A stretch of 64,000 nucleotides of DNA, from positions 14,164,041 through 14,228,040 of the forward strand of contig CM026562.1 in NCBI GenBank assembly GCA_015143295.1. Direction: 5' to 3'. The translations under genes were made by a program, and so were the position numbers. This DNA comes from Tetracentron sinense (taxonomy: Eukaryota > Streptophyta > Magnoliopsida > Trochodendrales > Trochodendraceae). This document shows, piece by piece, positions 6,323 through 48,558 of this stretch (position 1 is its first letter; the number at the start of each line of letters is the position of its first letter). The notes beneath the pieces are model-generated. The model had not been told where the DNA came from, ran no database searches, and saw only the letters and a list, made by a program, of their open reading frames with translations.

Positions 6323-6635
6323 TGATTAGATCCTAAGAACAATACAAATGAGGCTAACTTGGATATCTAGTTACTAATCATTTCACCATTACTAAATATC
6401 CAATAAGCACATAACAATACACTCAAGGGAAACATAGCAATGACATCATATACAATCCATGTTCCTAGCGTAGGACTCTAAGTTCGGTTGAGCCTCAACC
6501 GGTTTTGACTAAAACTAACTTGTTAGTCTATACTTGGAATACAACTCTTTCATAACACCTATTGCCTTGTTTAATCATGGTATCAGTTCTAAGTGACCCT
6601 AGATACTCTAATGCCTGGAGCTCTGATACCACTTC
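6323..6635 (-). promoter_or_regulatory. Leader and primer binding site of element D
   Basis: The minus strand reads TGGTATCAGAGCTCC at 6617-6631, complementary to the 3' end of initiator-methionine tRNA, separated by a few bases from the LTR end at 6636. The roughly 290-bp untranslated leader between it and gag has no other recognisable element. Confidence 0.85.
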
Positions 6636-6668
6636 TGTCGTGCCCCTAAATACCCCCTAGGAGTTAAG
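6636..6668 (-). repeat. Terminal 33 bp of D's 5' LTR (piece 1 of 3)
   Basis: The piece starts TGTCGTGCCCC at 6636 (LTR end CA on the minus strand) and breaks off at the TTAAG target-site duplication (6664-6668) of solo LTR C. It continues at 21996 with GGATACTTTAGAGG. The uninterrupted order is visible in a related LTR at 41948-42025. Confidence 0.9.
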
Positions 6669-8506
6669 TGTTAGACATGATGCCCAGAAAGTCATTTAGA
6701 TTGTTAGATTCTTATTAATTTGATTAATAAAGACTTCTTCTTAATCTATTGTGTATTCATTATGGGTAATTGACCATGATCATGAGATGATCTATAGGAT
6801 ATGACATATTGATAAAGGTCCATAGGATATATTGTAAGAAAGTTATGTGATTGGATTATCACAGGCAGATATAAATTTCCAGTTCCTTATACCTTAAATA
6901 GTCACAGCTGTGGGTGAAGTTGGGCATCTCACTTATATGGCTGCCAGAATGCTAAGATGTTCTCAATAGTTGAGATGTAGTTCTATCTCGAACTATTGTA
7001 GTAGAGACTACACATCAGCATATGGGTGCTTCAATGTACACTGACTGATTGCATTCAATGAGAGACCTCTTGCATAAACATACTATCAGATAGTTGGTCT
7101 CTCATTCACGTTGAACAGTTTCGATGATCCTTAGATCGGATGAGTTCATCTATGACTGAGCAGTGATTTGATTGTTTTGATTCCACCAAAGTATTTTCCA
7201 ACTTAGGGAATACGATACAGTGACAGTTGGATAGTCAGAAAGTTGTTCGAGTCATGATGAATTTCAAACAAGAAATCCATACTCATTAATTTGAGAGATT
7301 ATCCAAGTTCAGGGTAAGACAGTTGATAAGTTCAAATCTTGCGTAGGTGATTTTGAAATCAAAATAATTTTTGAAATATACTTTTATTAAAAGATATTAT
7401 ACTTATAAAAGGATTTTCTCAAATTGTTTTTCATGAGAAATTGTTTCTCATGGCTTAATCATAAGTCTTGGAAACCCGGATGATGTGCAATGGCTACGGG
7501 TTAGATGGTATGTCAATCTCGAAGGCCCATTAGGGATAATGTATTTGGAAGGATAAATCGAAAGTTCATGTGGTAGAATCCGTATTGGTTAAATGTTCAT
7601 ACACTGGGATTCAATTGCAACATGGATGTCTCACGTCACTTGCAATTCCGATGTAATTTCCGTTTAGAGTCAATGGGATAACATTGGGTAAGCCAAGGAA
7701 AGAATGTCCTAGAGCAATCTGTGGAGATGCTCACATAAGAAATACAAGCTCAATAATTGATTAAATGTTAATCAATTATTTAAGTGATTAAAAGTTAATC
7801 ATTTAATTAAATAGATTAAAAGTTAATATATGGTTTAAATTAATTGTTAATTTAAATCTAGGGATTATTTTAGCAATTATTTAATTAACATAATTAAAGG
7901 GGAAATGGGTTTGACCCATATCCGTAAACCCATCCATATGGACCTTTAATATGGGCCTAAGCCCATGGGTTTAAACCCTAGGGTGGGGCACCCACTTTGG
8001 TAATCCTAATTGGATTATGATTTATTTAATTGAATAATTGTTGAATAATATCTCTTTTAACTATGGAATTAAAATCCAATGGTTGGATTGTAACAAATAT
8101 GAAGATAAGTTGTAATTGGATTACAACATGGAGTGTTTAACTCCCCAAAGCTTACTCCGCATCATACCTCACGCCCCCCTTGGTTGTTTAGGTTTCCTAG
8201 TCTGACTAGGATTCCTCCATGTGTTGGTTGTTGACTTATCCCTATTAATTAAGGAATCCTCATTTAATAAAGACTCTTTAATTAGTAGGATTACTATATG
8301 TAGAGCCCCAGACTTTTTCATGCTTAATATATAACACTTTCATAGCCAATTTGCCTTTAAAGTAGTACAATTAATAAATAAGGAAGAAATTGGAAATTCT
8401 GAAACGTCAGAAATGTTCCTTTTCGAAGTACGAACCCAACGCAAGTTGAATCGTCAAAATCCGACGAACGAGTCAAAAGATATGGCCAAAACAGTTTGGA
8501 CCTGCA

Positions 8507-8697
8507 GACCACCGATCGCTCGGTCCATGGAGCGATCGATCGGTCCAAAACCGATCGATTGGAGGCTATCGACTGGTCAAGATTTTTGTATGGGGAAATT
8601 TTTCAGAGAGTTGATTTTTGGTCGAGAGCTCGGTCAACACACCGATCGCTCGATAGGCAACCGATCGACCGGTCATAACCACCGATCGCTCGGTCTT
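8507..8697 (+). repeat. GATCG palindrome cassette in A's 5' LTR
   Basis: Multiple copies of ACCGATCGCTCGGT, GAGCGATCGATCGGTCC, CCGATCGACCGGT and relatives occur here. Each is a near-perfect palindrome or half of one, within AT-rich LTR. The second copy in the 3' LTR is at about 15909-16098. In the related B LTR the same position holds a completely different repeat array. Confidence 0.8.
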
Positions 8698-9599
8698 CGT
8701 CTTTTTGCAGAATTTCATTAAGGGTGTTTTCGTCTTTAGGGCGTTTCACTCTTTCCTCTTAAGGGTTACCCGAGCCTTTAGGGCTCATTCTCAACACTTA
8801 GAGACATTTGAGAGTTAGGGAAAGAGGAGAGGGTTTTCCTAACCTAGGGTTTGCTTTTGGGGAGAAATCAAAGGGTTTCAAGACCCACAATCATCTCAAG
8901 CTTGGATTGCTTCAAGATTCCGATTCAAGCACGCGAGGAGGAGTTTCTCCAAGCTAGGGCAGCGCCTCACGAACATTTTTGGAGGAGTTTTCTTCCTCAT
9001 TGATCAAGGTCGGTACTTCTTGCTACCCTCCTAGTCATAGTTCCTCTTTTCCTCCATGTTTCTTTGTTTTCCTTCATCTATACTTGTGCTAGGAGTTGGG
9101 ATGTGTGGATGTTGTGAATGGAGATGGAATGGGCGATTGGATGCCAATGGTTGTGGATGATGTGATGAATAAAATGGGGAAGGGCATTGCACCAATAATA
9201 AACATACAAACATGTTGTGAATATGAACCCATCTAAAGAAGCTAGTGATAGGCTTAACAAATAATGTACTCACTATGTTTGATGAAATGCCAAAGTGAAA
9301 GACTTGAATTGTAAATTAAAGAAATGCATGCTTAATTAATTGCGGAAATTGCTAGGACCTATGATAGTGTGTCTTCTTGTTTTCCCTAAATTACATGAAT
9401 ATTGAATTGCTCAAATGATTGATGTCCTATGTACTGTTAACTCTCCAAATGTCATATTTAAATTTAAATGCAAGTATGTACAAGCTTCCACGAGCACGAC
9501 ATGCATGATATGAATTTACCGAGGTCTTCAAGAACGGGAATTTGAGGTGGGACATATCCTACGATATGTTTTACCTCGCTTTTCACAAGAAAACAAGAA

Positions 9600-9815
9600 C
9601 AAACATTCCACGAGGGTTCTCCCCTCACTCACAAGTGCATAGCATAAAGAAGGGTCTCCCTTCCCTCGCAAGTACATACATATCATGAAGAAGGGTCTCC
9701 CTTCCCTCTCAAGTGCAGTGCATAAAGAAGGGTCTCCCTTCCCTCTCAAGGCATCTCACAAGCGCATCTCACAAGTACATCTTACAAGTGTATCTCACGA
9801 GTTACATGATAACAA
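9600..9815 (+). repeat. Short tandem arrays in A's 5' LTR
   Basis: Three units containing AAGAAGGGTCTCCCTTCCCTC begin at about 9647, 9688 and 9725 (period 37-41 bp). They are followed by several CATCTCACAAG-type units of about 14 bp. GGGTCTCCCTTCCC is itself imperfectly self-complementary. B's LTR has the same array at 18840-19015. Confidence 0.8.
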
Positions 9816-10121
9816 GAAAGCATGCATGACATGCATGACATGACACGATATACAAGAATCAAGCATGATAAACAAGACGAGTTTTCAAGCACGAAAAATG
9901 GTACCTTAAGTCAAGTCAAGTGCACGATATTTTCAAGGGTTTTATCGGCTTTTATGAATGTAAGCATGATTATATACTGCTTTACTTTATTGTTATGATA
10001 TGAATTATTCCTGCTTTATTTGTGTGAATTGTTTCCTGCTCTATGTATCGCTATCTGTATACTATGACTGTTGGTTAGTATTTGCTACCTGCTGAGTATT
10101 CCATGCTCAGCCGTACTTCTT

Positions 10122-10241
10122 ATGTCGGCAAGTGATAGCGAAGCGGCTGCTCCATTCGATGTCTATGCTCCTGGCCCATGGGTGGAGGAGGAGTATGTCG
10201 AGGAACCTTTGGAGGAACCTCCGGTCGAGGGTTACTATTAG
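10122..10241 (+). CDS. Conserved 39-codon ORF inside A's LTR
   Basis: ATG at 10122 begins an acidic, proline-rich reading frame of 39 codons ending TAG at 10239-10241, with core PWVEEEYVEE followed by PLEEPP. B's LTR has an ORF of the same length at 19317-19436. From the codon for the first shared Pro onward the two differ by nine synonymous third-position changes but only Tyr/Cys internally and Tyr/Gln at the last codon. D's LTR keeps the ten-codon core with five synonymous and no replacement differences. That pattern indicates selection on a peptide. It lies about 300 bp upstream of the LTR end, so it would be in the transcript leader (U5 or R) and could act as an upstream ORF. No known domain recognised; function unknown. 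It is distinct from gag, which starts 660 bp further on. Confidence 0.55.
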   Translation: MSASDSEAAAPFDVYAPGPWVEEEYVEEPLEEPPVEGYY

Positions 10242-10547
10242 ATGGTAGTAAATTCTGAGTGATATAGCTGTGGGTGAGTTGAGAGAGATATATCCATGTA
10301 TTTTGGCGGGCATGTCCGCACTTTCTTTTGTTTTCCTTTTTGTATAAACTTGGGTTAGATGTATATACATAGAGGTTTGTTAGACTTTCGCTGTGCTTTA
10401 TAATTTATGTTTCCGCTATTATTGTCCCCTATTATGTATGCTCTGTGGGTTTGCAGGTTATTTTGGTCAAGCAAGTCATGTAAGTCATGATTAGTCGTCC
10501 AAAGTTCACTCTAACTCTTAGGGTGGGTTTTGGGTTGCGACAAGAAG

Positions 10548-10560
10548 TGGTATCAGAGCT
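10548..10560 (+). promoter_or_regulatory. Primer binding site of element A
   Basis: TGGTATCAGAGCT lies five bases after the LTR end and matches the complement of the initiator-methionine tRNA 3' end. The following leader (10561-10898) has no recognisable gene. Confidence 0.92.
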
Positions 10561-10898
10561 TAGGCTTTAGGTCTCTAGGGTCACTTAGAATCTAATACCA
10601 CGGCTTGACAAGAGCATATGTTAGGAAACAAGTTAGGAAGGAGGTAAGTCGGAAGCGAGTCTTGATCCAAGTGAAAGACTAAACTTTAGTCTTAGTCAAA
10701 ATGGTTGTTTCAACCAAGTACGAGTCTTAGGAACGCTAGAACACCAAGGTATAATATTATAAATACACCGATGGTTGTGATGCGATGTATATTAGTATTA
10801 TACAACTAATACAAATTGAATTATTGTGCAATGGAACTGTGATAAATTATGGTTTCAAGTGAGACTCATGTGGTGCTATTGTTCTCAGGACTTTAGTC

Positions 10899-12147
10899 AT
10901 GAGACGGGGCACACGGGGTCATGGACCACACACCAGAGCTTCTTCTTCTTCACGAGATGAGGATGAGCAGCCGGACCTCTCTCAGGTCTTAGGCTCTATT
11001 GCTCAGACTCTTGCCATTCTGGCGGCTCGGCAGGTTATACCTTCTTCGGCAGCACCTACTCCATCGCCAGCGGCTCCAGTACATCGTACAGCTGGGGTTG
11101 AGGCATTCAGGAGATTGAGGCCTCCATCATTCCATGGGAGTGTGGACCCTCTTGCTGCGGAGGCGTGGATCCTCCAAATGGAGAAGATCTTTGCGGTCCT
11201 CTCGCCTACAGAGGAGGATAGAGTAGCATGGGCAGTTTTCATGCTAGAGGAGGAGGCACATCACTGGTGGTTGTCCGCATTGAGGACGCGAGATTTGACT
11301 ATGCAAGGTCAACCTTGGACTTGGGAGGAGTTCAAGGATACTTTTTATAAGAAGTACTTTCCGATCGGAGCACGAGAAAAGAAAGAGAGAGAATTCATCA
11401 ACCTTGAACAAGGTTCGATGTCAGTAGCACAATATGAGGCTAAGTTCTCGGAACTCTCTAGATTCGCTACTCACATGGTTGCCACTGAGGCAATGAAGGC
11501 GAGAAGGTTTGAGCAATGGCTCAAAGATGTTATCATGGAGAAGGTTTCAGTTTTCAGACATGCTACCTACCCTGAGGTAGTAGACAAAGCCTTATTGGTC
11601 GAGGCGAATTCTGAGGCCGTGTCCAAGAAGAGGGAATTGGCGAGAGGCCAAGCCAGTAGTTCAGCACCTCCAGAGAGGTGGGCTCGTACCGGCCCTTATT
11701 AGTACACGTGGCCAGCACCACCGATGAGGCCATCTTATGCGCCTCCAGCTCCACGGCAGTATGTGCCTCAGGCACCGCGACCTCAGGCTCTTCCAGCTCC
11801 ACGGCCAGTTGTACCTCAAACGGTGAGGTATGCTCCACCTCCGGCCCCTCCGACCTATACACACGAGGTCTGCACTTCGTGCGGTCGAAAGCACCCGGCA
11901 GGAGATTACCGAAGGGCATCGGGGGGATGTTTTCATTGTGGTCGTCAGGGCCATGTGATCAAGGATTGCCCCAGTCGGCATTTACCAGGTCAGTCTCAGG
12001 GGATTAGGCCCCCAGCACGCCCAGCAGGATCATACCTGGCGTCATCCCAGACTACCCAGTCTACACCTCAGGCTCGCCAGGCGAACCAGGGGCGAGTTTT
12101 TGCCTTGATAGAGGGTGATGCACTTGCATCTGATGATGTGGTGCAAG
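10899..12147 (+). pseudogene. gag: Element A gag
   Basis: ATG at 10899 follows a leader of about 340 bp and opens a frame with an Arg/Ser-rich start, a capsid domain (about residues 65-245; WILQMEKIF, HHWW, FKDTFYKKYFP) and a linker rich in Pro, Ala and Gln. There is one in-frame TAG (11700-11702) after ERWARTGPY. Beyond it the frame continues with a CTSCGRKHPAGD motif and a good CCHC knuckle (CFHCGRQGHVIKDC, about 11928-11969) that binds RNA during packaging. The coding sequence ends at 12147, where a GT...AG gap begins. Apart from the TAG the protein looks intact, unlike D's. Confidence 0.88.
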
Positions 12148-12289
12148 GTACGCGTTTAGAGTTATTCTTTTATCCACGATTGTCATGTTATGCTTTACTC
12201 CTTGTGTACGTATGTGGCGTGCTATATATCTATCTACCTATATATATATGATGTGATGCATGGATTGACGTAGCTAGTTGAAATTTCAG
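12148..12289 (+). other. Putative GT-AG intron between gag and protease of element A
   Basis: Gag's frame runs to ...DVVQ and the first base of a Gly codon at 12147. GT at 12148-12149 (CAAG|GTACGCG) and AG at 12288-12289 (GAAATTTCAG) bound 142 bp. This is not a multiple of three, and excision moves gag into exactly the protease frame, reading G-TLLVNECLARV. The segment is AT-rich with ATATAT runs. Element D carries a 138-bp segment with identical boundaries and the same flanking codons. Introns are established for Ogre-type Tat elements near the protease-RT junction; I do not know of one at this site in Tekay-type elements. Splicing is inferred, not observed. Confidence 0.65.
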
Positions 12290-12681
12290 GAACCCTACTA
12301 GTCAACGAATGTTTGGCTAGAGTGTTGATTGATACCGGGTCTACTCATTCGTTTGTCTCGCCGAGCTTTTCAGATGGCTTTTCTGTGGAGCCTAGTCAGC
12401 TAGAACCAGAGTTAGCCATTTTGACTCCTCTCGGCAAGACAGTAGTGGCAGATAAAGTGTGTAGAAATAGTGTGGTTCAAGTGGGAAGCCACGAGTTGGT
12501 GGTTGATCTAATAGTTCTTGGATTCCAAGAATTTGACGTGATATTGGGAATGGATTGGTTAGCGGCACATCACAGGCATGTAGCTTGCTTTGAGAAAATG
12601 GTACTCTTCAAGCCAGTAGAAGGAAAACCATTCCACTTTCGCAGGTTAAAAAGTAGAGATATTGTTCGTTTTACAGCTTGA
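12290..12681 (+). pseudogene. Element A protease
   Basis: Aspartic protease with intact active-site LIDTGSTHSF (Asp at 12331) and the downstream flap/hydrophobic region ending LGMDWLAAHH, a pattern usual for gypsy proteases. The frame runs into TGA at 12679-12681. One base appears missing near 12677, since RT-linker sequence (SLANPE) continues in the next frame and D is continuous here. The protease would mature Gag-Pol in the particle. Confidence 0.85.
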
Positions 12682-15596
12682 GCTTAGCTAATCCCGAGGT
12701 AAAGGACTCATCAACTATTCCGGTTGTGAGTGAATTCCTGGATGTATTTCCAGAGGAGTTGTCAGGATTGCCTCCAGACAGGGAGATTGAGTTTGTGATT
12801 GAGCTTGCACCAGGCACAACTCCTATTTTCAGAGCTCCGTATAGAATGGCCCCTATTGAACTCAAGGAGTTGAAGACTCAGTTGGAGGAATGGCAAGGCC
12901 TTGGTTTCATTCGACCAAGTGTCTCACCGTGGGGTGCCCCAGTGTTATTTGTTAAGAAGAAGGATGGCTCGATGCGGATGTGCGTCGATTACCGGCAGTT
13001 GAATAGGTATCCATTGCCTAGGATTGATGACTTATTTGATCAGTTGAAATGAGCGAGATTTTTCTCGAAGATAGATCTTCGGTCGGGTTATCACCAGTTG
13101 AAGATCAAGGCCGAGGATGTGCCTAAAACTACTTTCCGGACTTGGTACGGACACTACGAGTTCTTGGTGATGCCGTTTGGTCTCACAAATGCGCCGGCAG
13201 CCTTTATGGATTTAATGAACCGGGTGTTCCGGCCATATCTAGATCGATGCGTGATCGTGTTTGTTGACGATATCTTGGTGTATTCCCAGACACGGGAAGA
13301 TCACATGCGAGACCTTCGAGTTGCTTTAGAAATGCTGAGAGAGCACAAGCTGTACGCCAAACTTAGCAAGTGTGAGTTTTGGTTGGAAGAGGTGGCATTC
13401 CTAGGCCACGTTGTATCTGCGGAAGGCATTTCGGTGGATCCGAAGAAGATAGAGGCAATCATGAGTTGGGCGAGGCCCAAGAGTATCACAGAGATGCGCA
13501 GCTTTCTTGGGTTGGTAGGCTACTATAGGAGATTCGTAGAGGGTTTCTCCAGCCTTGCAGCACCGCTCACTTACCTGACAGGGAAGAACGCCAAGTTTGT
13601 ATAGAGTGATAAGTGCGAGATCAGTTTCACGGAACTGAAGAAGAGGCTTACTACAGCCCCTGTCCTTACTGTGCCATCCGGACCTTATGGGTATGAGGTG
13701 TATAGTGATGCCTCGCACGTTGGACTTGGGTGTGTACTCATGCAGCACAAGAAAGTCATTGCCTATGCATCAAGGCAATTGAAGGAGCATAAGAAGAATT
13801 ACCCCACGCACGACTTGGAGCTTGCCGCAGTCGTGTTTGCACTCAAGATTTGGCAACACTACCTTTACGGGGTAGAATTCTATGTGTATACGGATCACAA
13901 GAGCCTCAAGTATCTCTTTTCCCAAAAAGAGTTAAATCTAAGGCAACGGCGTTGGATGGAATTTTTGAAAGATTATGATTGTACCATTCAATACCACCCG
14001 GGTAAAGCAAACGTAGTGGCTGATGCTTTGAGTAGAAGACCTCCGGGGTTATTAGCACACATGTTGGTACAGGAATGGAAGCTACTTGAAGATTTGGTAA
14101 ATCTGGACATCAGTGTGAATGACTCTGTCCATAGTCCTATCTTGGCAAATGTCACGGTTCGGCCATACATTATAGATTTGATCCAAGAATATCAAGCCAC
14201 GGATGCTAAATTGTTGGCTTATCGGGACAAGGAAGTTGCCAAGGGTAGTGAAGACTTCTCTCTCACTAGCCGGGGTGCTATTACGTTCAAAGGAAGGTTG
14301 TGTGTTCCAGCCAATGTAGATCTTCGAAGGGAGATTATGGATGAAGCACACCGATCAAAGTACACTGTGCATCCAGGGGGTACGAAGATGTACCAGAACC
14401 TCAAGAGTCACTTTTGGTGGTGGAATATGAAGAGGGATGTTGCTGAGTATGTGGCACGGTGCTTGGTGTGCCAACAGGCGAAGGCAGAGCACTTGCGACC
14501 CGCTGGTCTATTGCAGTCTCTTCCTATTCCCGAGTGGAAATGGGAGAACATATCTATGGATTTCATAGTTGGCATGCCAAAGACGATAAGGGGCTCAGAT
14601 GTGATATGGGTAGTAATGGATCGTTTGACTAAGTCCGCTCATTTCTTACCCTACCGAACCACCTTCAACTCTAGTCAGTTGGCCGCACTATACATCAAGG
14701 TAGTGGTTCGACTACACGGAGTGCCAGTCAGTATTGTGTCAGATCGGGATCCAAGATTCACATCAAGATTCTGGAAAAGTTTTCAGGAAGCTATGGGTTC
14801 CCAACTTAATTTCAGCACTACTTTTCATCGACAGACGGATGGACAAACCGAGAGGGTGAACCAAGTTATAGAAGACATGCTTCGGGCTTGTATGCTGGAT
14901 TTCAAAGGCAGTTGGGAAGAGCACTTGCCTTTGGTAGAGTTCGCCTACAACAATAGCTATCAGGCGAGTATCCAAATGGCTCCATTTGAGGTCTTATATG
15001 GGCTAAGTTGCAGGTCTCCTCTCTACTGGGATGAGGTAGGAGAAAGGAAAGTACTTGGTCTGGAGTTGATCGAGCAAACTGAAAGTATAGTTAAGATCAT
15101 CCGGGATCGGTTGAAAGCCGCTCAAGATTGCCAAAAGAGCTATATGGACACACGCCGCAGGGACTTGGAATTCCAGGTTGGGGATCGAGTCTTTGTGAAA
15201 GTATCTCCTAGCAAAGGGATTATGAGATTCGGCAAAAGAGGCAAGCTTAGTCCTCGCTATGTTGGACCGTTTGAGATTATCACGCGGGTTAGTGAAGTTG
15301 CTTATCGAGTGGCTCTTCCACCTTACATGGCCGCGGTTCACAACGTTTTCCATGTGTTTATGCTTCGAAAGTACATTACGGATCCTTCGCATGTTATAGA
15401 CTTAGAACCGTTGGAAATTCGAGAGGATCTCACCTTAGTTGAGAGGCCGGTTTATGTATTGGATCGGAGAGATCAAGTCCTTCGCAACAAAATGATTCCG
15501 TTGGTTCTCGTGCAGTGGCAACATCATGCTCGGGAAGAAGCTACATGGGAGCGTGAAGCCAAAGTCAAAGCGAAGTATCCGGAATTGTTCGAATGA
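12678..15596 (+). pseudogene. pol: Element A RT-RNase H-integrase-chromodomain
   Basis: A single frame runs from 12678 to TGA at 15594-15596 with two internal stops: TGA at 13050-13052 in the RT (DQLK*ARFFSK) and TAG at 13602-13604 (a TGG-to-TAG type change). RT shows [13 protein letters not shown] and FVDDILVYS. An 18-bp in-frame deletion near 13002 removes six residues that D keeps before YPLPRIDD. RNase H (about 13671-14030) has [10 protein letters not shown] and TDHKSLKY. Integrase (about 14150-15200) has the HHCC finger (H..H...CLVCQQ) and intact DDE (SMDF, SDRDPRF, QTERVNQ). The tail from about 15330 is a chromodomain of Tekay type, which in this lineage is thought to target chromatin. 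From 13671 onward it is open for 641 codons. Confidence 0.93.
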
Positions 15597-15700: not shown

Positions 15701-16975
15701 AGTAGAGCCCCAGACTTTTTCATGCTTAATACATGACACTTTCGTAGCCAATTTGCCTTTAAAGTAGTACAATTAATAAATAAGGAAGAAATTGGAAATT
15801 TTGAACGTCAGAAATGTTCCTTTTCGAAGTACGAACCCAACGCAAGTTGAATAATCAAAATCCGACGAATGAGTCAAAAGATATGGCCAAAACAGTTTGG
15901 ACCTGCAGACCACCGATCGCTCAGTTCATGGAGCGATCGATCGGTCCAAAAAAGATCGATCGGAGGCTATCGACTGGTCAAGATTTTTGTATAGGGAAAT
16001 TTTCCAGAGAGTTGATTTTTGGTCAAGAGCTCGGTCAACACACCGATCACTCGGTAGGCAACCGATTGATCGGTCATAACCACCGATCGCTCGGTCTTCG
16101 TGTTTTGCAGAAATTTCATTAAGGGTGTTTTCGCCTTTTGGGTGTTTCACTCTTTCCTCTTAAGGGTTGCCCAAGCCTTTAGGGCTCATTCTCAACACTT
16201 AGAGACATTTGAGAGTTAGAGAAAGAGGAGAGGGTTTTCCTAACCTAGGGTTTGCTTTTGGGGAGAAATCAAAGGGGTTTCAAGACCCACAATCACCTCA
16301 AGCTTGGATTGCTTCAAGATTCCGATTCAAGCACGCGAGGAGGAGTTTCTCCAAGCTAGGGCAGCGCCTCACGAACGTTTTTGGAGGATTTTTCTTCCTC
16401 ATTGATCAAGGTCGGTACTTCTTGCTACCCTCCTAGTCATAGTTCCTCTTTTCCTCCATGTTTCTTTGTTTTCCTTCATCTATACTTGTGCTAGGAGTTG
16501 GGATGTGTGGATGTTGTGAATGGAGATGGAATGGGCGATTGGATGCCAATGGTTGTGGATGATGTGATGAATGAAATGGGGAAGGGCATTGCACCAATAA
16601 TAAACATACAAGCATGTTGTGAATATGAACCCACCTAGAGAAGCAAGTGATAGGCTTAACAAATAATGTACTCACCATGTTTGATGAAATGCCAAGGTGA
16701 AAGACTTGAATTGTAAATTAAAGAAATGCATGCTTAATTAATTGCGGAAATTGCTAGGACCTATGATATTGTGTCTTCTTGTTTTCCCTAAATTACATGA
16801 ATATTGAATTGCTCAAATGATTGATGTCCTATGTATTGTTAACTCTCCAAATGTCATATTTAAATTTAAATGCAAGTATGTACAAGCTTCCACGAGCACG
16901 ACAAGCATGATATGCATTTACCGAGGTTTTCAAGAACGGGAATTTGAGGTGGGACATATCCTACGATATGTTTTG
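15701..16975 (+). repeat. 3' LTR of element A, first 1.27 kb
   Basis: This is colinear with 8299-9579 of the 5' LTR, with few differences; the terminal TG reads AG. It contains the second GATCG cassette (about 15909-16098). It stops four bases after the ACATATC-CTAC-GATATGT hairpin and jumps into pol-end sequence of element B. The junction has about 7 bp of near-identity (TATGTWTTGGAT), which suggests a deletion by illegitimate recombination. Confidence 0.92.
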
Positions 16976-17211: not shown

Positions 17212-17423
17212 TGTAGAGCCCCAGACTTTTTCATGCTTAATACATGACACTTTCGTTGTCATTTTGCATTTAAAGAGTTATAATTAATATATAAGGAAGA
17301 AATTGGAAATTCTGAAACATTAGAAATGTTCCTTTTCGAAGTACAAACCCAACGCAAGTTGAATCGTCAAAATCGGACGAACGAGTCAAAAGATATGGCC
17401 AAAACAGTCTGGACCTGTAGGCA

Positions 17424-17930
17424 AGGACGTAGCTCGGTTACGCGCTAAGGACGTAGCTCGGTTATGCGCTAAGGATGTACTCTGATAACGAATACGTTGT
17501 GTATCCGTTGTACAACAGACAACGGGTACGTCGTGCAGCTCACAACGGGTACGTCGTGCAGCTCACCACGGGTACGTTGTACAGCACCACGGGCACGCTG
17601 TACATAAGACAACGGACAACATGTTTGGTACTATTCACAACGGACAACATGGTTGATACTATTCACAACGGACAACGTGTTTGGTACTATTCACAACGGA
17701 CAACGTGTTCAGCACTGTCCACAATGGACAACGTGTTTGGCACTGTTCACAGCTCAACGAGCTCAGCACTATGCGCAACACAACGGACAACGGGTTCGGC
17801 ACCCTTCATAGCACCACGAGTTGACACTGTTCACAGCACCACGAGTTGGCACTGTTCACAGCACAACGAGTTGGCACTGTTCACAGCACCACGAGTTGGC
17901 ACTGTTCACAGCACCACGAGTTTGACACTC
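17424..17930 (+). repeat. Alternative tandem-repeat cassette in B's LTR
   Basis: Four successive sub-arrays occur: about 24-bp units with GGACGTAGCTCGGTTA; units with ACAACGGGTACGTCGTGCAG; about 30-bp units with ACAACGGACAACRTGTT and ACTATTCAC; and 25-bp units with AGCACCACGAGTTGGCACTG (17811-17927). It occupies exactly the place of the GATCG cassette of A. It is open in one frame for 174 codons, but the translation is just the repeat and is not supported as a protein. Confidence 0.85.
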
Positions 17931-18839
17931 GTGTTTTTACAGAAATTTAGTAAGGGTGTTATGGTCTTTTGTCAGTTCACTCTTACCTTAAGAGTTTAAC
18001 CCGAGCCTTTAAGGCATCATTCGACACTTAGAGAGTTTGAGAGAATAGGAGAAAGGGGAGAAGGCGATTCCAACCTAGGGTTTCCATTTTGGAGAGAAAT
18101 CAAAGGGGTTTTGAGACCCTAGATCACCTCCAGTCCGGTTTTCTTCAAGATCTCGGCCCAAGCTTGGGCGAAGCTCGTGTTCCAAGCTAGGGCAGCAACT
18201 CACAGTCGTTTGGAAGAGGGATTTTTTCCTCATCTCTTCAAGGTCGGTACTTCTTGCTACCCTCCTAGTTATAGATCCTCTTTTCCCCTCATTTCTCTTT
18301 ATTTTCTTTCACTTACACATGTACTATGAGATGGATGAATGGTAAATGGTGAATGGTGAATGGAGATGTAAGGGGCGATTGGATGCCAATGGTTGTATGT
18401 GATGAACAAATGGGGAAGGGCATTGTTCCAAAAATGAACGTACATGTATGATCTGAGTAAAACCCATCTAGAAAAGCATGTTATAGGGTAAATCCATAAT
18501 GAACACACCATGTTTGATGAAATGCCAAGGTGAATAAAGTGAGCTGTGAATTAGGAAATGTATACCTAAGAAATTCTGAATATTGCTAGGACCTATGATA
18601 GTGTGTTTTCCTGCTTCCCAAAATGCTATGAATATTGAATTGCTCAACCTTTGATGCTATATTTGTTGTGAAATTACCCAAATGTCATCTTTAAATTGGA
18701 ATGCAAGTATGTACACGGTTCCCACGAGCACGGCATGCATGGCATGATTTATCGAGGTTTTCAAGAACATGGTTAGAGGTGGGACATATCCTACGATATG
18801 TTTTACCTCGCTTTTCACAAGAAGACAAGAACCAACATT

Positions 18840-19015
18840 CCACGAGGGGTCTCCCCTCACTCACAAGTGCATATCATGAAGAAGGGCCTCCCTTCCCTCG
18901 CAAGTACATACATATCATAAAGAAGGGTCTCCCTTACCTCGCAAGTGCATTGCATAAAGAAGGGTCTCCCTTCCCTCTCAAGGCATCTCACAAGTGCATC
19001 TCACAAGTTACATGA
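18840..19015 (+). repeat. Short tandem arrays in B's LTR
   Basis: This is the same array as in A (9600-9815): three units with AAGAAGGG(T/C)CTCCCTTNCCTC followed by CATCTCACAAG units. Confidence 0.8.
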
Positions 19016-19316
19016 TCACAAGCAAGCATGCATGACATGACACGACATACAAGAATCAAGCAAGATAGACAAGACAAGCTTTCAAGTACGAAAAGATATT
19101 TCAAGTCAAGTCAAGTGCACGATGTTTTCAAGAGGATTTATCGGTTTTCTACGAATTACAAGCATGATTATAAACTGCTTTACTTCCTTGTATGATATGA
19201 ATTGTTTCCGTTTGACATATATGAATTGCTCCTGATCATGTATTGCTATTTCTATGCTATAATTGTTGGTTAGTATTTAGTACCTGCTGAGTATTCCATG
19301 CTCAGCCGTACTTCTT

Positions 19317-19436
19317 ATGTCGGCAGGTTCTGAGGGAGCTGTTGCTCCATTTGATGTTTGTGCTCCTGGTCCATGGGTGGAAGAGGAGTACGTCGAGGAG
19401 CCTTTGGAGGAACCTCCCGTAGAGGGTTATCAGTAG
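19317..19436 (+). CDS. Conserved 39-codon ORF inside B's LTR
   Basis: ATG at 19317 to TAG at 19434-19436 has the same length and position as the ORF in A's LTR and the same relation to the upstream CTGAGTATTCCATGCTCAG repeat. The N-terminal seven or so residues vary (AGSEGAV versus ASDSEAA in A). From the following Ala-Pro onward the peptide is nearly identical although many third codon positions differ. Function unknown; acidic, with no signal peptide or membrane segment. Confidence 0.55.
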   Translation: MSAGSEGAVAPFDVCAPGPWVEEEYVEEPLEEPPVEGYQ

Positions 19437-19740
19437 GTGGTGATTAGATTCTGAGTGGATTAGCTGTGGGTGAGATGAGAGTCTGATTTATGTGTTTTTG
19501 GCGGGCATGTCTGCACTTTCTTTTGGATTCTTTTTGTATAAACTTGGATTGCTTATGTATATACATAGAGGTTTGGTAGACTTCCGCTATACCATGTTAG
19601 AGTACGTTTCCGCTATTTATGTCCTCTTTTGTATATGCTCTGTGGGTTTTTGCAGGTTGATTTGTCAAGCAAGTCATGAAATCCATGATTAGTTGTCCAA
19701 AGTTCACTCTAACTCCTAGGGTGGGTTTTGGGTCGCGACA

Positions 19741-21136
19741 CCAATGGACCCTACCATTGCCTTACAATGTCAAAATCACACCATATCACACATATAGAAG
19801 CCCAGTCGGGCTCTCATAACTTCCTGCAGTCGATCACACTTCCCCTGCGATCTATCGCAAATCACACTGAGCCTAAATTCCGAGCTAGGCACAGCCCGAA
19901 ACCGAGGGCTCCATCCCTCTGCTCCATTTTCACTCTCATTCATCCCATCCATACATCATTCATAAGGTCTTTGACCTTTTTTTCATCCACACATAATATT
20001 ACCTAACCATTCCATGTAATTAAAGTAGCTTAAATAAGGGAAAAGAGAAGAGATGGAGAGGGATTTTACCTACTACACGACTTTCGAGGCTCCAGATGTT
20101 GAAATGGTCGTCGCCAATGCGATCAAAACGCTGGAAAACCTCTAGGTGACCCGCTTCTCTCTCTAACCTCCCCTTTCTCTCTCTAGAATTCTCTCTTTCT
20201 CTCTCTACACGCCAATCGAGACACCGGGGAGAAAATCGAACGTCCCCAATGCGTCGGGAACGTCGAAAAACCCCGGGGTAGGGTACATGCAATGCGCGGC
20301 CACCCTTCTCTCTCTTCCTTTCTCTCTCTCTCTCTCTCTAGAATCTCTCTCTCTCTAAAAAAACCCATTCGGTGGCTACTGTGTCCGAATGTGGGAAATA
20401 AAGGATTAAGGCTTTGCCTTAATATAGAATATGAGGTTAAATCGTGTGCAACGGCCCGTACAATGTTTGGTGTGGCATTGCCTTTTTGACCATTGACTTA
20501 GTTTGACCAAGGTTTGACCGATTCTGATTTTTATGGAAATGCCCCGTGTAACCATACCAAACGACGTCCGTTTTCAATGAAACTTCAGGTAACCAACCAT
20601 GAGGTAGTCCGACACCTGCTATAAAAATTTCAGGGAAAATTACTGAGTTTTGTCAGTTACACTTTTGTCCGCAAGAAAACTGTAAAACCCACTAATTTCC
20701 TGCTTTCGGACACAAAACAGGCTGCCGTTTCTTCGTTTGAGATCACTAACTGCCGAAACGACAGACGTTAGTTACTACGGCCGACCGGCACGTGCTGGTA
20801 TCAACCGCACGGATTTCTATTAGGATCCCCAAGAAATATTGAGTCCCACTTAATTTCTGGAAATCTGGAAATTTCTCATTTTCTTGATTTTCTTACATGA
20901 TATGACCCTGTGGTCCTGCGAAACGATACCTGACGGAACTAATACAAGTGAAGGTTCCGGTAGTCGACTAACACACTGTGCACGGTTTTCGAGAAGAAAT
21001 ACTGAGATTTTGTCGGTACAACTCAATCCCGAGTAAAACTCCCTTTTCATAATTTAATTAAAAACTTAACCTATTAACCCCAATTAAGGACCAATAAACC
21101 CATAATTTTATTATATTAAAATTCTGGGGCGTTACA
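19741..21136 (-). repeat. Element N: gypsy-type LTR fragment
   Basis: On the minus strand it begins TGTAACGCCCCAGAA at 21136, a start typical of plant gypsy LTRs. It runs left to 19741, where it abuts the exact end of B's LTR, as if B had inserted into it. TATCC at 21137-21141 would be one half of its target-site duplication in A's LTR. It contains a CT-rich microsatellite at 20300-20362 and no coding sequence. Confidence 0.7.
20300..20362 (+). repeat. CT microsatellite
   Basis: (TC)n tracts interrupted by TTCC and TAGAA lie within LTR N. Confidence 0.85.
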
Positions 21137-21388
21137 TATCCATGTATTTTGGCAGGCATGTCCGCACTTTCTTTTGTTTTCCTTTTTGTATAAACTTGGG
21201 TTAGATGTATATACATAGAGGTTTGTTAGACTTCCGCTGTGCTTTATAGTTTATGTTTCCGCTATTATTGTCTCATATTGTGTATGCTCTGTGGATTTGC
21301 AGGTTATTTTGGTCAAGCAAGTCATGTAAGTCATGATTAGTCGTCCAAAGTTCACTCTAACTCCTAGGGTGGGTTTTAGGTCGCGACA
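21137..21388 (+). repeat. Terminal 252 bp of A's 3' LTR
   Basis: Colinear with 10287-10542 of A's 5' LTR, ending TCGCGACA and followed by the CTATA duplication. It closes element A after the N and B insertions. The LTR segment equivalent to 9580-10286 is missing from this copy. Confidence 0.92.
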
Positions 21389-21995
21389 CTATAACTAAAG
21401 TAGTTATAGTTAAAATAGGATTTTATTTAATTAATAATAAGAGTTATTATTAATAAATAACTACTTAAGGGATAAGATCTAGTTGGAGTAGGATTAGGAT
21501 TGGATCATAGTCTATAAATACACCAAGACCAAAACGTAGGGAGATAATATTATCACAATTCTCCCAAAAATTTTCTCTCTCCCTCTCCTCTCTCTCCAAA
21601 CCGTGGGCACCTAGGGATTTTCCCTAGGATTTTCCTGAGCTACAAGGGTGGTCAAAGTTGGGTTTTGCTTTTCTAGGGTTTTGAACCTTAGTATTTTTGG
21701 TGATAGAAGGTCTACACCATTGATCCATCTTCTTCCTCTTGCTTCAATAATTCCAAAGGAGATTCTAAAGCTTCGTGGAGATAGCGAAGAACAAGGGTCG
21801 AGCTTCTAGTATTTTTTCGGAAAAATCTCTACAAAGAGTTCTGACGGTTCGAGTGGATTAAGTTTCACTGGTGAACATCATTCACCGAGGTGATATGACT
21901 AAAACTCTTAGATAGTTTTTTATGCTTTCTATAGTGTTAAGATCTAGGGGATCCAATTTCCGTATAAATTTTTATCCGGATGCCCCTTCATTAAG

Positions 21996-23627
21996 GGATA
22001 CTTTAGAGGTGACTATTCTTGCCTGCCAAACCATCCAGTAATGAACAAGGTAAACATCATGCTATAACAACAATAATCAGAGTGCGGAAACTATAACATA
22101 ATGCAGAAGTGTAAATCAACCTTTTCTTTTCTATATAAGGTAGTCTGTATTTCTAGTTAACATATATACATAACATATCAAGTCAAAGGTGGACATGCCC
22201 ACCCATCAAAATACAAAAGGGAATCTCACAACCACTCCTCTCAATAGTAATCTAGCTATGGCCAAACATCCAGATCCCTATCTTCCTGCGACTGCATAGG
22301 GATAGGTGGCTCCCTCTCCTCTACATACTCTTCCTCAACCCAAGGCTCAGGGTTGAGGGCATCCACGGCACCTACCAATATAAAAGTACGGTTGAGTATG
22401 GAATACTCAGCGAGTACAAGCTACTAGCTAACCACAATAGTAACAATCACACAAAGGCAATAGGATATAATTCTTCACATCAATTTAACAATAATAGATA
22501 TATATATATATATATGACATTCATAGCATTGAAAGTAAAGCAATGTAATAATCTTGACATGCTTGGATGAATGCAAAACCCCGGTAAAACTCGTATTTTG
22601 AAAGTCATGTCTTATTCTTGAAAATAGCATCTCGTACTTCTTTCAAAACTTGTTTGTGAATGTTTGAAACATGTTCTTGTCTTGGTCTTGTTCGTAAGAA
22701 TCACACATGATTGTCTGGTCTTGCTTAGAATCACTTGTCTTGCTTGTTCTTGTCATGTTCTTGACTTGACTTGCTTGTTTCTTGTGAGTCAGAGGTTAGT
22801 ACCCTTAGAGCGACTTGAAAGTCGAGAATGTAAATTCTCTTCAATGAAAATATATACATATAGAAAGGGTACACCAACCTCCTTGACTTGTTTTCTTGTG
22901 AACCAAGTATGACATATCTTGCGATATGCCCTACCCTTGACCGGCCCGATGTCCGGCTTTATCATTCGTTTCGTGAATCACAATTTTTTTTTCATTTATG
23001 GTTTATCATATACATATACTTTAGAAAACCGGTTCATGTATGCATGTGTGAGTGGGTGTGGCATTGTAGCGATCTTGATGACATGCACAACTAAAAGGAA
23101 TCATGTGTCAGTGGCACTTGTGGTGATCATGATAGCATGCGCAACAAAAAGGATTATGCATAGCATTTTCATTCTTAATACAATCTTGCAAGAATTTAGA
23201 CAATATATAAACATTTGATCAATTTATCATTTTTTAAGGAAAATTACATAAAGTCTACTTTCATATTCTTCATTAATTCCATTTAGTTCTCATTTAGGTA
23301 TTTTATCAAACACATGGCGTGCACATTTCATAATCATTCTTCTTAAGTTCTTAGTGCATACGTTTCATCAAACCACATAGGGTGTATTCATTATGTAAGA
23401 AATACCCTTCCATCATTTTCCATCACACACATCACACCACATCCACACGGCATCCAATCGCCCCAACTCCTCGTCCACTCATACATCCCACCATTCATTC
23501 CATTTATTTTGTTCATATTTGGGGAAATTATCATATTTCAAAGGAAATGGAAGAACACAAGATTAACATTATCATTTTCAAGAGAAACCCTAGTTATTGC
23601 TAAGCTAGTTAGTAAGGGTGTACTAAC
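21996..23627 (-). repeat. D 5' LTR, piece 2 of 3
   Basis: From about 22766 it aligns with 1-940 of D's 3' LTR. The left part, absent from the truncated 3' LTR, contains GAGTATGGAATACTC (22395-22409), the homologue of the inverted repeat in A and B, and the decayed small ORF. It is broken at 23623-23627 (CTAAC) by element G. Confidence 0.92.
22256..22378 (-). pseudogene. D-LTR counterpart of the LTR small ORF
   Basis: Read on the minus strand from about 22378 to TAG at 22256-22258. It shares PEPWVEEEYVEEREPP with the A and B ORFs; over the ten-codon core all five codon differences from A are silent. The C-terminal part differs and is longer. The ATG of A and B is lost through a one-base deletion (TTATATTGG in place of TTATGTCGG), so it is either decayed or starts elsewhere. 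Confidence 0.5.
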
Positions 23628-29218: not shown

Positions 29219-30700
29219 TAAAAAATCAATTTGATGAACCTCAAATCTAAGGTTTGAGTTGAGAACTCACAAAGTCAAGGGGATGGTTAGGGCTTCCTAT
29301 AAGTCTATCTACCATTTTTGATATTTTAACAATTACGTTATAAATTACAGGATGATGTACTTTAAGTGCAGAAAATAGAAAACCAAACAAACCACAACAC
29401 AAAGATTTTTACGTAGAAACCCTTCCAGGAAAAACCACGGGACCTAGTCCAACCATGAGAATCCACTAAGAAAAAGTAAACAAGAACTTACAAGACTCGA
29501 ACTTGAGTCCTTCGGACTCGACACTACGATCCTTCAGTTCTTAGTCCTCCACGCCTCAAAAATTCATCACATACTCACAAGTCCTGTGATCAACCACAGC
29601 TACTTGTACTTCTCTTTGTGTCTCGAAAACAGTCCACGATCTTCCGATCGATCTCCGTCAATGACGACATCGGATTCCACCGATCAAATCACTTTACCAC
29701 GATCCTTCTCAGATCGATCTCCTTCACAAAGGCTCTAGAACACTCCGACCAGGATGTTCTATCCAGAATGGGTTGATGGTTTTATAAAAATCAACACCTA
29801 GATGGACTTCTTCAAAGGACAAGTTCAAACAAGCAAAATTGGAACTTTGGGCTTGCAAACTCTAGGTTGAATGCACTAACAAAGGGAAGGAGAACAATAA
29901 GATTCTAGAGTTTTTATGAACTCTAGAAGGTGTTAAAAACCCTCTCTATACTCCTCCAAAGTTGTGCTCCACGAACTATAAGGGTTCTTACTTTATAGGG
30001 AATCAAAACAGTGTTTTAGAAGTTGCTAAAGTTGATTAAAAGAACCAAAATAGGCAAAAAAAAGGGATTTGGAAAAATTCCCATATCAGGGTCGACCCTA
30101 GGGGTTACTTGGGTTGACCCAACTACCCCACTTGGGTCAACTCAAGTACCCTTCAGGGTCGACCCTCAAATTTTCAAGGTTTTGTTGAATTTTGCCATAC
30201 ATTTTTTTGGCTCTTCAGGGTCGACCCTGAGGTGAAAAAAAAATTTAAAACTTCATTTTTAGCTCTTGCTCCCTTCACAAAAGTTATAGCTCTTTTCGAC
30301 ACAATCGATTTGATATATTATAGAGCAAAATCTGAGCTATGGTTTGGGTGATAAGCCACCTACAAGCAACCTTGGTTTTTTAAAAAATTTCAGATTTTTA
30401 ATTTGTTTTGCACTGCTTATCTCATCACCTAGGGTCCGTATTGTTAGTGTAGGACACTTATCACCTAAGGCATCATATTAGGATTATTCTAAGTCAATTC
30501 CCACCTATGGTAGCATGGTATCTAGGTCACTTACCATCCTATGAAGGAAATGATCAACCGAGTCTTCAACGGTCTTCTTCGGTCTTCAACTTCACTTGTC
30601 GTGGATGCTTGAAGGCAATAACAGACGACACACACCTAGACACCTAGACTTACTTGTTTTGATACCGGAATAAACCAAGACAAAAAACATAGACTTTACA
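29219..30700 (-). repeat. 5' LTR of element G
   Basis: Colinear with 23628-25126. The end base pair at 29219 reads TA instead of TG. It contains the shortened GGGTCGACCC cassette and the same weak TATAG...GGTTTGGG block at 30281-30360. Confidence 0.92.
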
Positions 30701-30705
30701 CTAAC

Positions 30706-31412
30706 CATGAGGAGTTACTCCTCTTTGAGGAAAATCTTACTTGATGGAGGAAGATCTTTGTTTGAAGTGTAATCCCAAACTTAACTTGAGTTTCACTCCT
30801 TCAATCCAAACCCTTCTTGAGTAAACCCTAACACTTTCCTTCCTCTCTTTCTTCTCTCTCTAATACAAGCTTGAGGGTTTATGAAACCCTCAACCCATGG
30901 ATTTGGGTTATATAGAAAAAGGGGTAGTCAAATGACCATCCTACCCTTAATGAAAATATGCAAAACGCGAAAGACCAATCGATCGGCGGCCTACCGAGCA
31001 ATCGGTGTTTTTGACCGAGCGATTGGTTGAAAACACTCTCTTTGAAATTTTTTCCCATACAAATTTTTTGACCAATCAATAGATACCAATTGCTCAGTTT
31101 TGGACCGAGCGATTGCTACTGGGACCGAGCGATCAGTGCTCTGCAAATTTTGACACTGAGTCCATTTTTCACTCATTTCCACTACTTGGACTTATCTCAC
31201 TTCTATTCTAACTCTTTTTCCCTTTTTTTTTTCACCCTCATAATTTAGGGAAAACATCCCTAAGAGATTTACTACTCTAATACATCATCTTAATCATTAA
31301 TTAATGCTACACAAGATTTCAAACTTCTCATTTCATAGAAAAGGGAAGATTACAAAGGTCTAAAGCCTTGATACTAGTTCCAATACATGGACGAAAGTTT
31401 CGGGGCTCTACA
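30706..31412 (-). repeat. D 5' LTR, piece 3 of 3 (LTR start)
   Basis: Colinear with 945-1597 of the 3' LTR, ending ...GGGGCTCTACA on the plus strand. It contains the GATCG cassette (about 30975-31140) and a TATATAG motif near 30910. Confidence 0.93.
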
Positions 31413-46384: not shown

Positions 46385-48558
46385 TATAGAGGGATCCGGA
46401 TAAAAATTTATGCGAAAACTGGATCCCCTAGATCTTAACACCATAGAAAGCATCAAAATTATCTAAGAGTTTTAGTCATATCACCTCGGTGAATGCTTTT
46501 CACCGGTGAAGCTTAATCTACTTGAATCGTCAGAACTCTTTGTAGAGATTTCTCCGAAAAAATACTAGAAGCTCGATCCTTGTTGTTCGCTATCCCCACG
46601 AAGCTTTACAATCTCCTTTGAAATTATAGAAGCAAGAGAAAGAAGATGGATCAATGGTAAAGACCTTCTATCACCAAAAATACTAAGGTTCAAAACCCTA
46701 GATTTGCAAAACCCAACTTTGGACTACCTAGTAGCTCACGAAAATCCCTAGGGGTCTCCCTAAGGTCTCACGGTTTTGAGAGAGAGAGGAGAGAAGAGAA
46801 AAAATTCTGGAGAAAAGTGCTTAATGGTCTAAGGTTTTGGGGTATATATAGACTAGGATCCTATCCTAATCCTACTCCAACTTGATCTTATCTAGTAGGA
46901 TTTATTAATTAACAATAACTCTTATTATTAATTAAATAAAATCCTACTTAATCTATAACAACTTTAGTTATAGTAATCATTCTAATTAAAGAGTCCATAT
47001 TATAAGAGGATTCCTTAATTAAAAGGGATAAGTCAACATCCTAACTCAAAAAAGGAAACCTAGTCAAACTAGGAGACCAACACCAAGGGGGGGGGGGGGC
47101 GTGAGCTTCTATGGGGCGTGGGTTTTGAGGAGTTAAAATTCCTTATTGTAATTCAATTACAATAACATCTTAATCCTAATTGCAATCCAACCATTGGATT
47201 TTAATTCCATTATAAAAGGAATTATATTTCAGCAATTATTCAATTAAACAAATCCTAATCCAATTAGGATTCCTCAAGTGGGCGCCCCACCCTAAGGTTT
47301 AAACCCATGGGCTTTAGCCCATATTAAAGGTCCATTTTAATGGGTTTATGGATATAGGTCAAACCCATTTCCCCTTTAATTATGTTAATTAAATAGTTAT
47401 CAAAATAATCCCTAGATTTAAATTAACAATTAATTTAAACTAGAGATTAAATTTTAATCTATTTAATTAAATGATTAACTTTTAATCACTTAAATAATTG
47501 ATTAACTTTTAATCAATTAATGAGTTTGTATTTCTTATGTGAGCACCTCCACAGATTGCTCTGGGACATTATCACTTAAATAATTAATTAAATGAGTTTG
47601 CAATTGAATCCCAGTGTATGAACATTAACCATTACGGATCCCGCCACATGAACTTTTAAATTCGATTTATCCTTCCAAATACATTATCCCTAATGGGCCT
47701 TCAAGATTAACATACTATCTAACTCATAGCCCATTGCAAATCATCCAGGTTTCCAAGACTTATGATTAAGCCATAAGAAACAATTTCTCATGAAAAGCAT
47801 TTTGAGAAAATCCTTTTATAAGTATAATACTTTTTAATAAAAGTATATTTCAAAACTTATTTTGTTTTCATAATCACCTGCGTAGGATTTGAACTTAATC
47901 AATTGTCTTACCCGAAACTTGGATAGTCTCTCAAATTAATGAGCATGGATTTCTTGTTTGAAATTCATCATGACTCAAACAACTTTCTGACTATCTAACT
48001 GTCACTGTATTGTATTCCCTAAGTTAGAAAATACGTTGGTGGAATCAAAACAGTCAGATCACCGCTCAGTCATAGATGAACTCATCAGATCTAAGGATCA
48101 TCGAAACCGTTCAATATGAATGAGAGACCAACTATCTGATAGTATGTTTATGCAAGAGGTCTCTCATTGAATGCAATCAGTTAGTGTACATTTAAGCACC
48201 CATATGCTGATGTGTAGTCTCCACTACAATAGTTCGAGATAGAACTAACATCTCAACTATTGAGAACATCTTAGCATTCTAGTAGCCATATAAGTGAAGT
48301 GTCTAGCTTCACCCATAGCTATGACTATATAAGGTATAAGGAACTGGAAAGTTATATCCCCCTGTGATAATCTAATCACATAACTTTCCTATAATATATC
48401 CTATGGACTTTTATCAATATCTCATATCGTATAGATCATCTCATGATCATGGTCAATTACCCATAATGAATACACAATAGATTATGAAGAAGCATATATT
48501 AATCAAATTAATAAGGTTCTAACAATCTAAATGACTTTTCTAGACATCATGTCTAACA
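46385..48558 (-). repeat. 5' LTR of element F
   Basis: Minus strand TGTTAGACATGATG... from 48558; same family as solo LTR C and H's LTR. TATA-like CTATATATACC near 46845-46856. A run of ten or more G lies at about 47089-47099. TTCTC (48559-48563) should be half of its target-site duplication. Confidence 0.9.

Follow-up and report, generated by a model that had tools for sequence, protein, structure and literature searches.

Several retroviruses carry accessory genes in the U3 part of their long terminal repeats (LTRs), among them MMTV sag and lentiviral nef, with products of about 200–320 residues. The LTRs of plant retrotransposons, by comparison, are usually regarded as noncoding. Plants also have conserved-peptide upstream ORFs (uORFs), short frames in which the C-terminal part is conserved. 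For plant LTR retrotransposons, two studies describe additional ORFs (aORFs), coding sequence beyond gag-pol that persists across many members of a family, and the aORFs described there are in the internal region (PMC7264820, PMC6317226); one survey set its lower limit at 250 codons (PMC6317226). The rice element Retrosat2 has an ORF0 upstream of gag-pol that is divergent and is reported not to have been found outside grasses (PMC3485330).

Here we describe a much shorter ORF in the LTRs of Ty3/gypsy elements lying in a 64,000-nucleotide stretch of the Tetracentron sinense genome (the window). We think it likely, from comparisons between copies, that this ORF is a short protein-coding gene of chromovirus-type LTRs whose product would be an AUG-started acidic microprotein. 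The predicted product has 39–48 residues and is strongly acidic, with a pI of about 4. Like sag and nef, the ORF is a sense frame in an LTR, outside gag-pol and upstream of the promoter (here by motif), but its product is much smaller and its host is a plant chromovirus, and the likeness drawn here is one of position. It resembles the aORFs, as far as those accounts describe them, in being kept across many family copies, yet it is tiny and sits inside the LTR. With ORF0 of Retrosat2 (PMC3485330) it shares the status of an extra ORF, the long LTRs, and, probably, the broad Del/Tekay group. Its shortness and C-terminal conservation recall the conserved-peptide uORFs, except that this frame lies in the LTR of a mobile element and probably upstream of the promoter.

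The Nested Elements of the Window

Element A has a 5' LTR on the plus strand (8300–10542) that begins TGTAGAGCC and finishes GCGACA, with the primer binding site (PBS) TGGTATCAGAGC next to it (10548–10559, plus strand). Its gag-pol occupies interrupted frames at 10899–15593 (plus strand) and includes gag, a zinc knuckle, protease, RT, RNase H, and integrase. Pfam searches with five pieces of A gave matches above the cut-off in the gypsy order gag, protease, RT, RNase H, integrase. The integrase was recognised through its zinc-binding domain, rve scoring 21 bits against a cut-off of 32.6, and the match to Chromo is weak (E = 0.00079, 19.7 bits against a cut-off of 25.1, residues 618–662 of 663). 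A is a Ty3/gypsy element, probably of chromovirus type and probably of the Tekay/Del lineage; neither the long LTR nor the PBS decides membership in that group. Among the viral contigs searched we found no RT relatives.

The 3' LTR of A is split into two pieces (15702–16974 and 21136–21388), each a 96% match to the 5' LTR, and the region holding the ORF is absent from it. Inside this split LTR lies a partial element, B, whose LTR spans 17213–19740 (plus strand). Element D is on the minus strand, and nested insertions have left its 5' LTR in pieces: a central one at 21991–23627 and others at 30700–31412 and about 6636–6668, all minus strand. The interrupters are an insert at 23627/30700 and a second repeat (6669–8298 plus 21388–21990), into which A itself was inserted. 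This second repeat is solo-LTR-like and belongs to the same family as 46388–48558 and 59451–61676; it entered D's LTR near the 3' end and was later split by A.

A 39-Codon ORF Conserved between Elements

The first-pass annotation of the window had pointed to 39-codon ORFs in the A and B LTRs, and our translations agree: A has 39 codons plus TAG at 10122–10241, and B the same at 19317–19436 (both plus strand). It had also reported an excess of silent change over the last 28 codons. Recounting codons 12–39 (10155–10238 in A, plus strand) again gives nine silent and two replaced codons (Y/C and Y/Q), with base changes at codon positions 1/2/3 of 1/1/10. Codons 1–11, in contrast, have 3/4/2 and no coding bias. 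The claim that such a bias exceeds what chance would leave in an LTR is borne out by a Monte Carlo null with the types of substitution preserved, in which the mean is 7.7 replaced codons against the two observed (P = 5.5e-5). It also agrees with a scan of the A/B LTR alignment that covered 2112 gapless windows of 28 codons, both strands included, 1768 of which have at least six changed codons. When these are ranked by silent minus replaced codons, ranks 1–4 are all ORF windows, the exact stretch first singled out being fourth, and every one of the best 25 starts within 10137–10258, some of them antisense. Antisense coding was rejected, as the high-ranking antisense windows over the ORF stretch contain stops.

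The A ORF contains the core PWVEEEYVEE (10176–10205, plus strand), and D encodes the same ten residues (22345–22316, minus strand) with five silent changes and no replacements, as originally described. The D frame is decayed, however, and its limits need correcting: the interval first given, 22256–22378, begins at TTG, and in place of the ATG D has an ATA at 22381–22379, so that the ORF equivalent is 22256–22381 (minus strand), ending in TAG at 22258–22256. This early stop is unusual, most relatives continuing to WPYLDYC or WPYLDYY before they stop. D's own 3' LTR, just outside the window, retains the ATG but is interrupted by a stop further on. The two LTRs of D are broken at different places, as expected after insertion.

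Purifying Selection in Three Families of Copies

Further copies were collected from the same genome (G000, 1.16 Gb). First-look candidates are not confirmed copies, and since the best ones were scored, intact copies are over-represented in what follows. For the A family, the best 40 of 5668 first-look candidates were scored, 40 matched, and 30 loci were taken (L001 being the window's A copy); for the D family, the best 40 of 5407 gave 42 matches, from which 20 loci were taken. The D counts exclude the window's D copy (D5, L032) and L031, which is the same copy as L036 and represents D's 3' LTR. A third family consists of 20 loci taken from the genome search with P0005, a homologue introduced below.

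A dN/dS comparison on more copies, proposed in the first-pass annotation, was run as pairwise pN/pS, in which related copies are non-independent and the figures overstate the sample; in families A, D, and the third alike, the lowest windows fall in the ORF frame. In the A family, the lowest of 600 plus-strand 28-codon windows has a pN/pS of 0.263 (median 0.76), each of the 14 lowest windows is in the ORF frame, and codons 12–39 give 0.295; shared variants by codon position (3/2/7) are weak evidence for this family taken singly. In the D family, pN/pS is 0.27 for codons 1–46 and 0.168 for codons 11–46, with flanks at 0.73 and 0.95, and the best of 627 plus-strand windows of 36 codons reaches 0.159 (median 0.816), the 20 lowest all being in frame. 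Its shared variants are distributed 7/10/22 in the ORF and 4/9/7 and 12/18/15 in the flanks, and four chosen pairs of copies give P = 0.001, 4e-5, 2e-5, and 2e-5. For the third family, pN/pS is 0.269 in the ORF against 0.97 and 0.76 in the flanks, shared variants are 8/3/20, and the best of 697 plus-strand 36-codon windows has 0.253 (median 0.907), the 20 lowest again all in frame. At the level of sequence, these comparisons show purifying selection from about codon 11 to the stop in three families. The first ten or so codons are without constraint (pN/pS of 1.73 for codons 1–10 in the D family), in line with the lack of bias at the start of the A/B comparison.

Most sampled A copies (26/30) have the ORF intact; L014 is without the ATG, L018 and L029 have stops inside, and L019 is without its stop. 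Ten of the 20 distinct D-family copies are intact from the ATG through an end of the WPYLDYC/WPYLDYY kind, as read by eye, and the other ten are broken; the peptide of one member (L044) is MSAGTVDNLNPEPWVEEEYVEEREPPIPMQSQEDRDRDVWPYLDYC, followed by the stop. In the third family, which includes MSAGQFEICDPSPWVEEDYGEEEPAEAQQEEDRNLDKWPYPGYY followed by the stop (L070), eight of 20 copies have a stop inside the ORF. Broken copies, among them ones with stops or lost starts, are common. The layout of the predicted product recurs: the N-terminus varies and is often MSAG, the core is PWVEEEYVEE or PWVEEDYxEE, and the tail is usually aromatic (GYY, WPYLDYC, or WPYPGYY). Comparing majority letters over the core between A (29 copies, L018 being excluded for a gap in the core) and D (20 copies), six of 30 bases differ, all at third codon positions. 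Core residue 8 varies within the A family between V and A, its second base being T in 22 copies and C in seven.

A separate observation concerns silent divergence. Among D-family loci L033–L051, pS is 0.45 inside the ORF (codons 11–46) and exceeds that of the flanks (0.15–0.18). The excess may stem from constraint on the flanks, from recombination, or from CpG decay.

Homologues in Other Sequence

A protein search with the B reading alone returned 0 candidates, and matches needed alignments. With an alignment of A, B, and D, one match was found among four candidates: P0004, 47 residues from a 753-base ENA contig (E = 5.4e-3). An alignment of 11 readings that includes P0004 gave two matches among 525 candidates, namely P0004 itself (E = 2.5e-20) and P0005, 48 residues from a 743-base ENA contig (E = 5.5e-17, the profile containing P0004). 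When P0005 was searched against the genome, the best 150 of 31793 first-look candidates were scored and 150 matched, with E from 4.4e-10 to 1.2e-4; identity to the scored loci is 40–67%, and 102 of the 150 rows are without a stop. The same search with the D peptide (best 150 of 27433 first-look candidates scored, 150 matching) gave 113/150 without a stop. By eye, both P0004 and P0005 have Ile at the ATG position, while MAFFT instead pairs the first M of P0004 with the ATG.

At E <= 1, none of the four ORFs matched a Pfam family, and alignment A2 had no match among PDB sequences. Rfam, searched with 8300–10900 at the same threshold, gave nothing over the hairpin described below or the ORF; its sole match, IRES_APC (8567–8616, minus strand), was set aside as probably chance, at 28.2 bits below a cut-off of 50. 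Among the literature matches listed, judged by titles and abstract beginnings in a coverage that mostly leaves out subscription journals, no comparable LTR ORF was found.

Position Relative to the Promoter

Two TATA-like boxes follow the ORF in A, about 100–120 nt downstream of its stop: TATAAAC (10343–10349, plus strand), a candidate core promoter by motif only, and TGTATATACA (10360–10369, plus strand), likewise by motif only. Both are conserved in A copies, and similar boxes are present in B and D. Because these conserved boxes sit downstream of it, the ORF is probably part of U3 and would come shortly before the core promoter, a placement that follows from motifs only. Near this putative promoter, A has the GC palindrome GCGGGCATGTCCGC (10306–10319, plus strand) where D has GTGGGCATGTCCAC (22202–22189, minus strand); both sides have changed together, and the palindrome is perhaps a protein-binding site. 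A conserved coding exon in R/U5 was considered and rejected, as the lengths of T runs differ among copies.

Were transcription instead to begin far upstream in the LTR, the genomic RNA would carry the ORF within a long 5' leader, as the first-pass annotation had also suggested, and the ORF could act as a conserved-peptide uORF, its nascent peptide stalling ribosomes and so regulating gag-pol translation. We consider this unlikely, although it is the best of the alternatives. A constrained C-terminus behind a free N-terminus is the pattern of plant conserved-peptide uORFs. Rice Retrosat2, which a table in one study groups with Del/Tekay (PMC6317226), has been annotated by motif with a TATA box between LTR nucleotides 212 and 244 and an R region of 2023 bp (PMC3485330). 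Against a uORF, the A 3' LTR and B are without a TATA-like string by the start of the LTR, and the one in the A 5' LTR is specific to that copy, and a TATA there was accordingly rejected; a TATA-like site that A has upstream of the ORF, at about 9973, is not retained in D, and additional AUGs intervene between 9973 and the ORF. The TATA-like boxes that A, B, and D have in common are those downstream of the ORF.

Hairpin, Start Codon, and Frame

A hairpin precedes the ORF in all three elements. In A it is GCTGAGTAT-TCC-ATGCTCAGC (10091–10111, plus strand), ending 10 nt before the ATG and nearly unchanged in the 30 A-family copies; the B hairpin (19286–19306, plus strand) is identical, and that of D (22391–22411, minus strand) differs by two changes. 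It has nine pairs and a 3-nt loop, with a predicted energy of -10.8 kcal/mol. As bare forms, the A and D hairpins have z of -4.6 and -4.9; when 61 nt are folded around it, z becomes -1.64 for A, -3.26 for B, and -0.54 for D, and the fold predicted for D differs. The surrounding block is identical between A and B over more than 40 nt and is also conserved in D, and within the A family the hairpin has few changes, yet not clearly fewer than some neighbouring stretches. The viral contigs searched hold no match to it.

All 30 A copies, the single B copy, and all 20 D copies have the hairpin, the ATG block, and the core together, as do 17 of the 20 third-family copies. In all 68 copies with every landmark (71 were examined; L052, L060, and L067 are without one), the ATG position is in frame with the core, at a distance of 12, 13, or 18 codons. 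The hairpin is separated from the ATG by 10 nt in A and B, by 9 nt in D, and by 9, 10, 11, or 14 nt in the third family. The common hairpin suggests that the third family too lies within LTRs; a PBS-like site is at the expected place in one of its 20 loci (L052). The start context, CTTATGT or TTTATGT, is weak under plant rules. Preservation of the frame from the ATG onward fits translation starting there; an exon that begins after the GGCAG found a few bases later would be consistent with it too.

Under that second reading, splicing would use the block before the ORF (hairpin, T-rich tract, and GGCAG/GT) as its 3' site, and the peptide would form the C-terminal end of a product that takes its first exon from another part of the element. 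We hold this to be rather less probable still than a uORF. The site reads xAGG in 27/30 A, 1/1 B, 15/20 D, and 13/17 third-family copies, selection sets in only past the site, P0004 and P0005 have, by eye, Ile where the ATG would be, and splice-like donors can be found in the A leader or in the U5 of many D copies. The ATG, however, is about equally well kept (29/30, 1/1, 16/20, and 14/17 in the same order), and its presence in D's 3' LTR and in the D family weakens an idea that had looked strong. The A/B LTR scan also has no upstream exon of comparable coding signal, and A has CAAG, with which the junction would shift. In addition, 68 of the 71 copies have hairpin, ATG block, and core in place, and the small deletion in L060 and the lost hairpin arm in L067 are not junction-like; the A and D queries contained upstream flank, and any spliced copies would be under-sampled in this count. 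One candidate source of a first exon, the GTAAGT donor of the A leader, was rejected, being absent from D5 and L041.

It is very improbable that no protein is involved and that the pattern arises as a side effect of constraint acting on the nucleic acid, DNA or RNA (a promoter element or RNA structure): the hairpin block is indeed conserved in nucleotides among A, B, and D, but silent sites in the ORF are free while residues stay constant (pS of 0.45 for D-family codons 11–46, 0.15–0.18 in the flanks), and length differences between families preserve the frame.

A Candidate Accessory Gene of Plant Chromoviruses

The microprotein reading thus remains the one we prefer. An LTR-encoded acidic micropeptide had been suggested at the outset, and selection at the peptide level in three families of this genome, together with homologues in other sequence, now strengthens the case for it. 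Translation would start at the AUG 9–14 nt downstream of the conserved 21-nt hairpin, and the product is probably disordered. With the ORF in U3, upstream of the core promoter, its main way into element RNA would be the copy in the 3' LTR, or else a transcript of its own, as with the U3 accessory genes of complex retroviruses. As a guess held with low confidence, the acidic-aromatic peptide might be a short motif that binds a chromatin or transcription factor of the host; that such binding would help expression of the element or counter its silencing is likewise a low-confidence guess. On balance we lean, by a smaller measure than for the coding gene itself, towards the view that plant chromovirus LTRs have an ancient accessory gene for a U3-encoded, hairpin-preceded acidic microprotein, a gene kept in more than one genome and present in very many copies in this one.

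If this is true, the LTRs of these elements have more than a regulatory role, and a conserved microprotein encoded in them would add a new participant to the expression or silencing of the elements. Its gene would be copied whenever a solo LTR is, and surveys that impose a minimum ORF length would overlook it.

Other Features of the Leader and LTRs

The A leader contains GAG/GTAAGT (10644–10649) and then TTGTTCTCAG/GA (10887–10888) immediately upstream of the first ATG of gag. D retains the acceptor-like string in its leader (about 6332–6340, minus strand), and CAG/GTAAGA occurs in many D-family U5 stretches. A leader intron whose removal would take out the PBS is possible from these motifs. 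Within the LTRs, A/B identity at 9560–9740 is about 95% against roughly 80% around it, and this stretch contains repeated inverted units of the GAAGGGTCTCCCTTC type.
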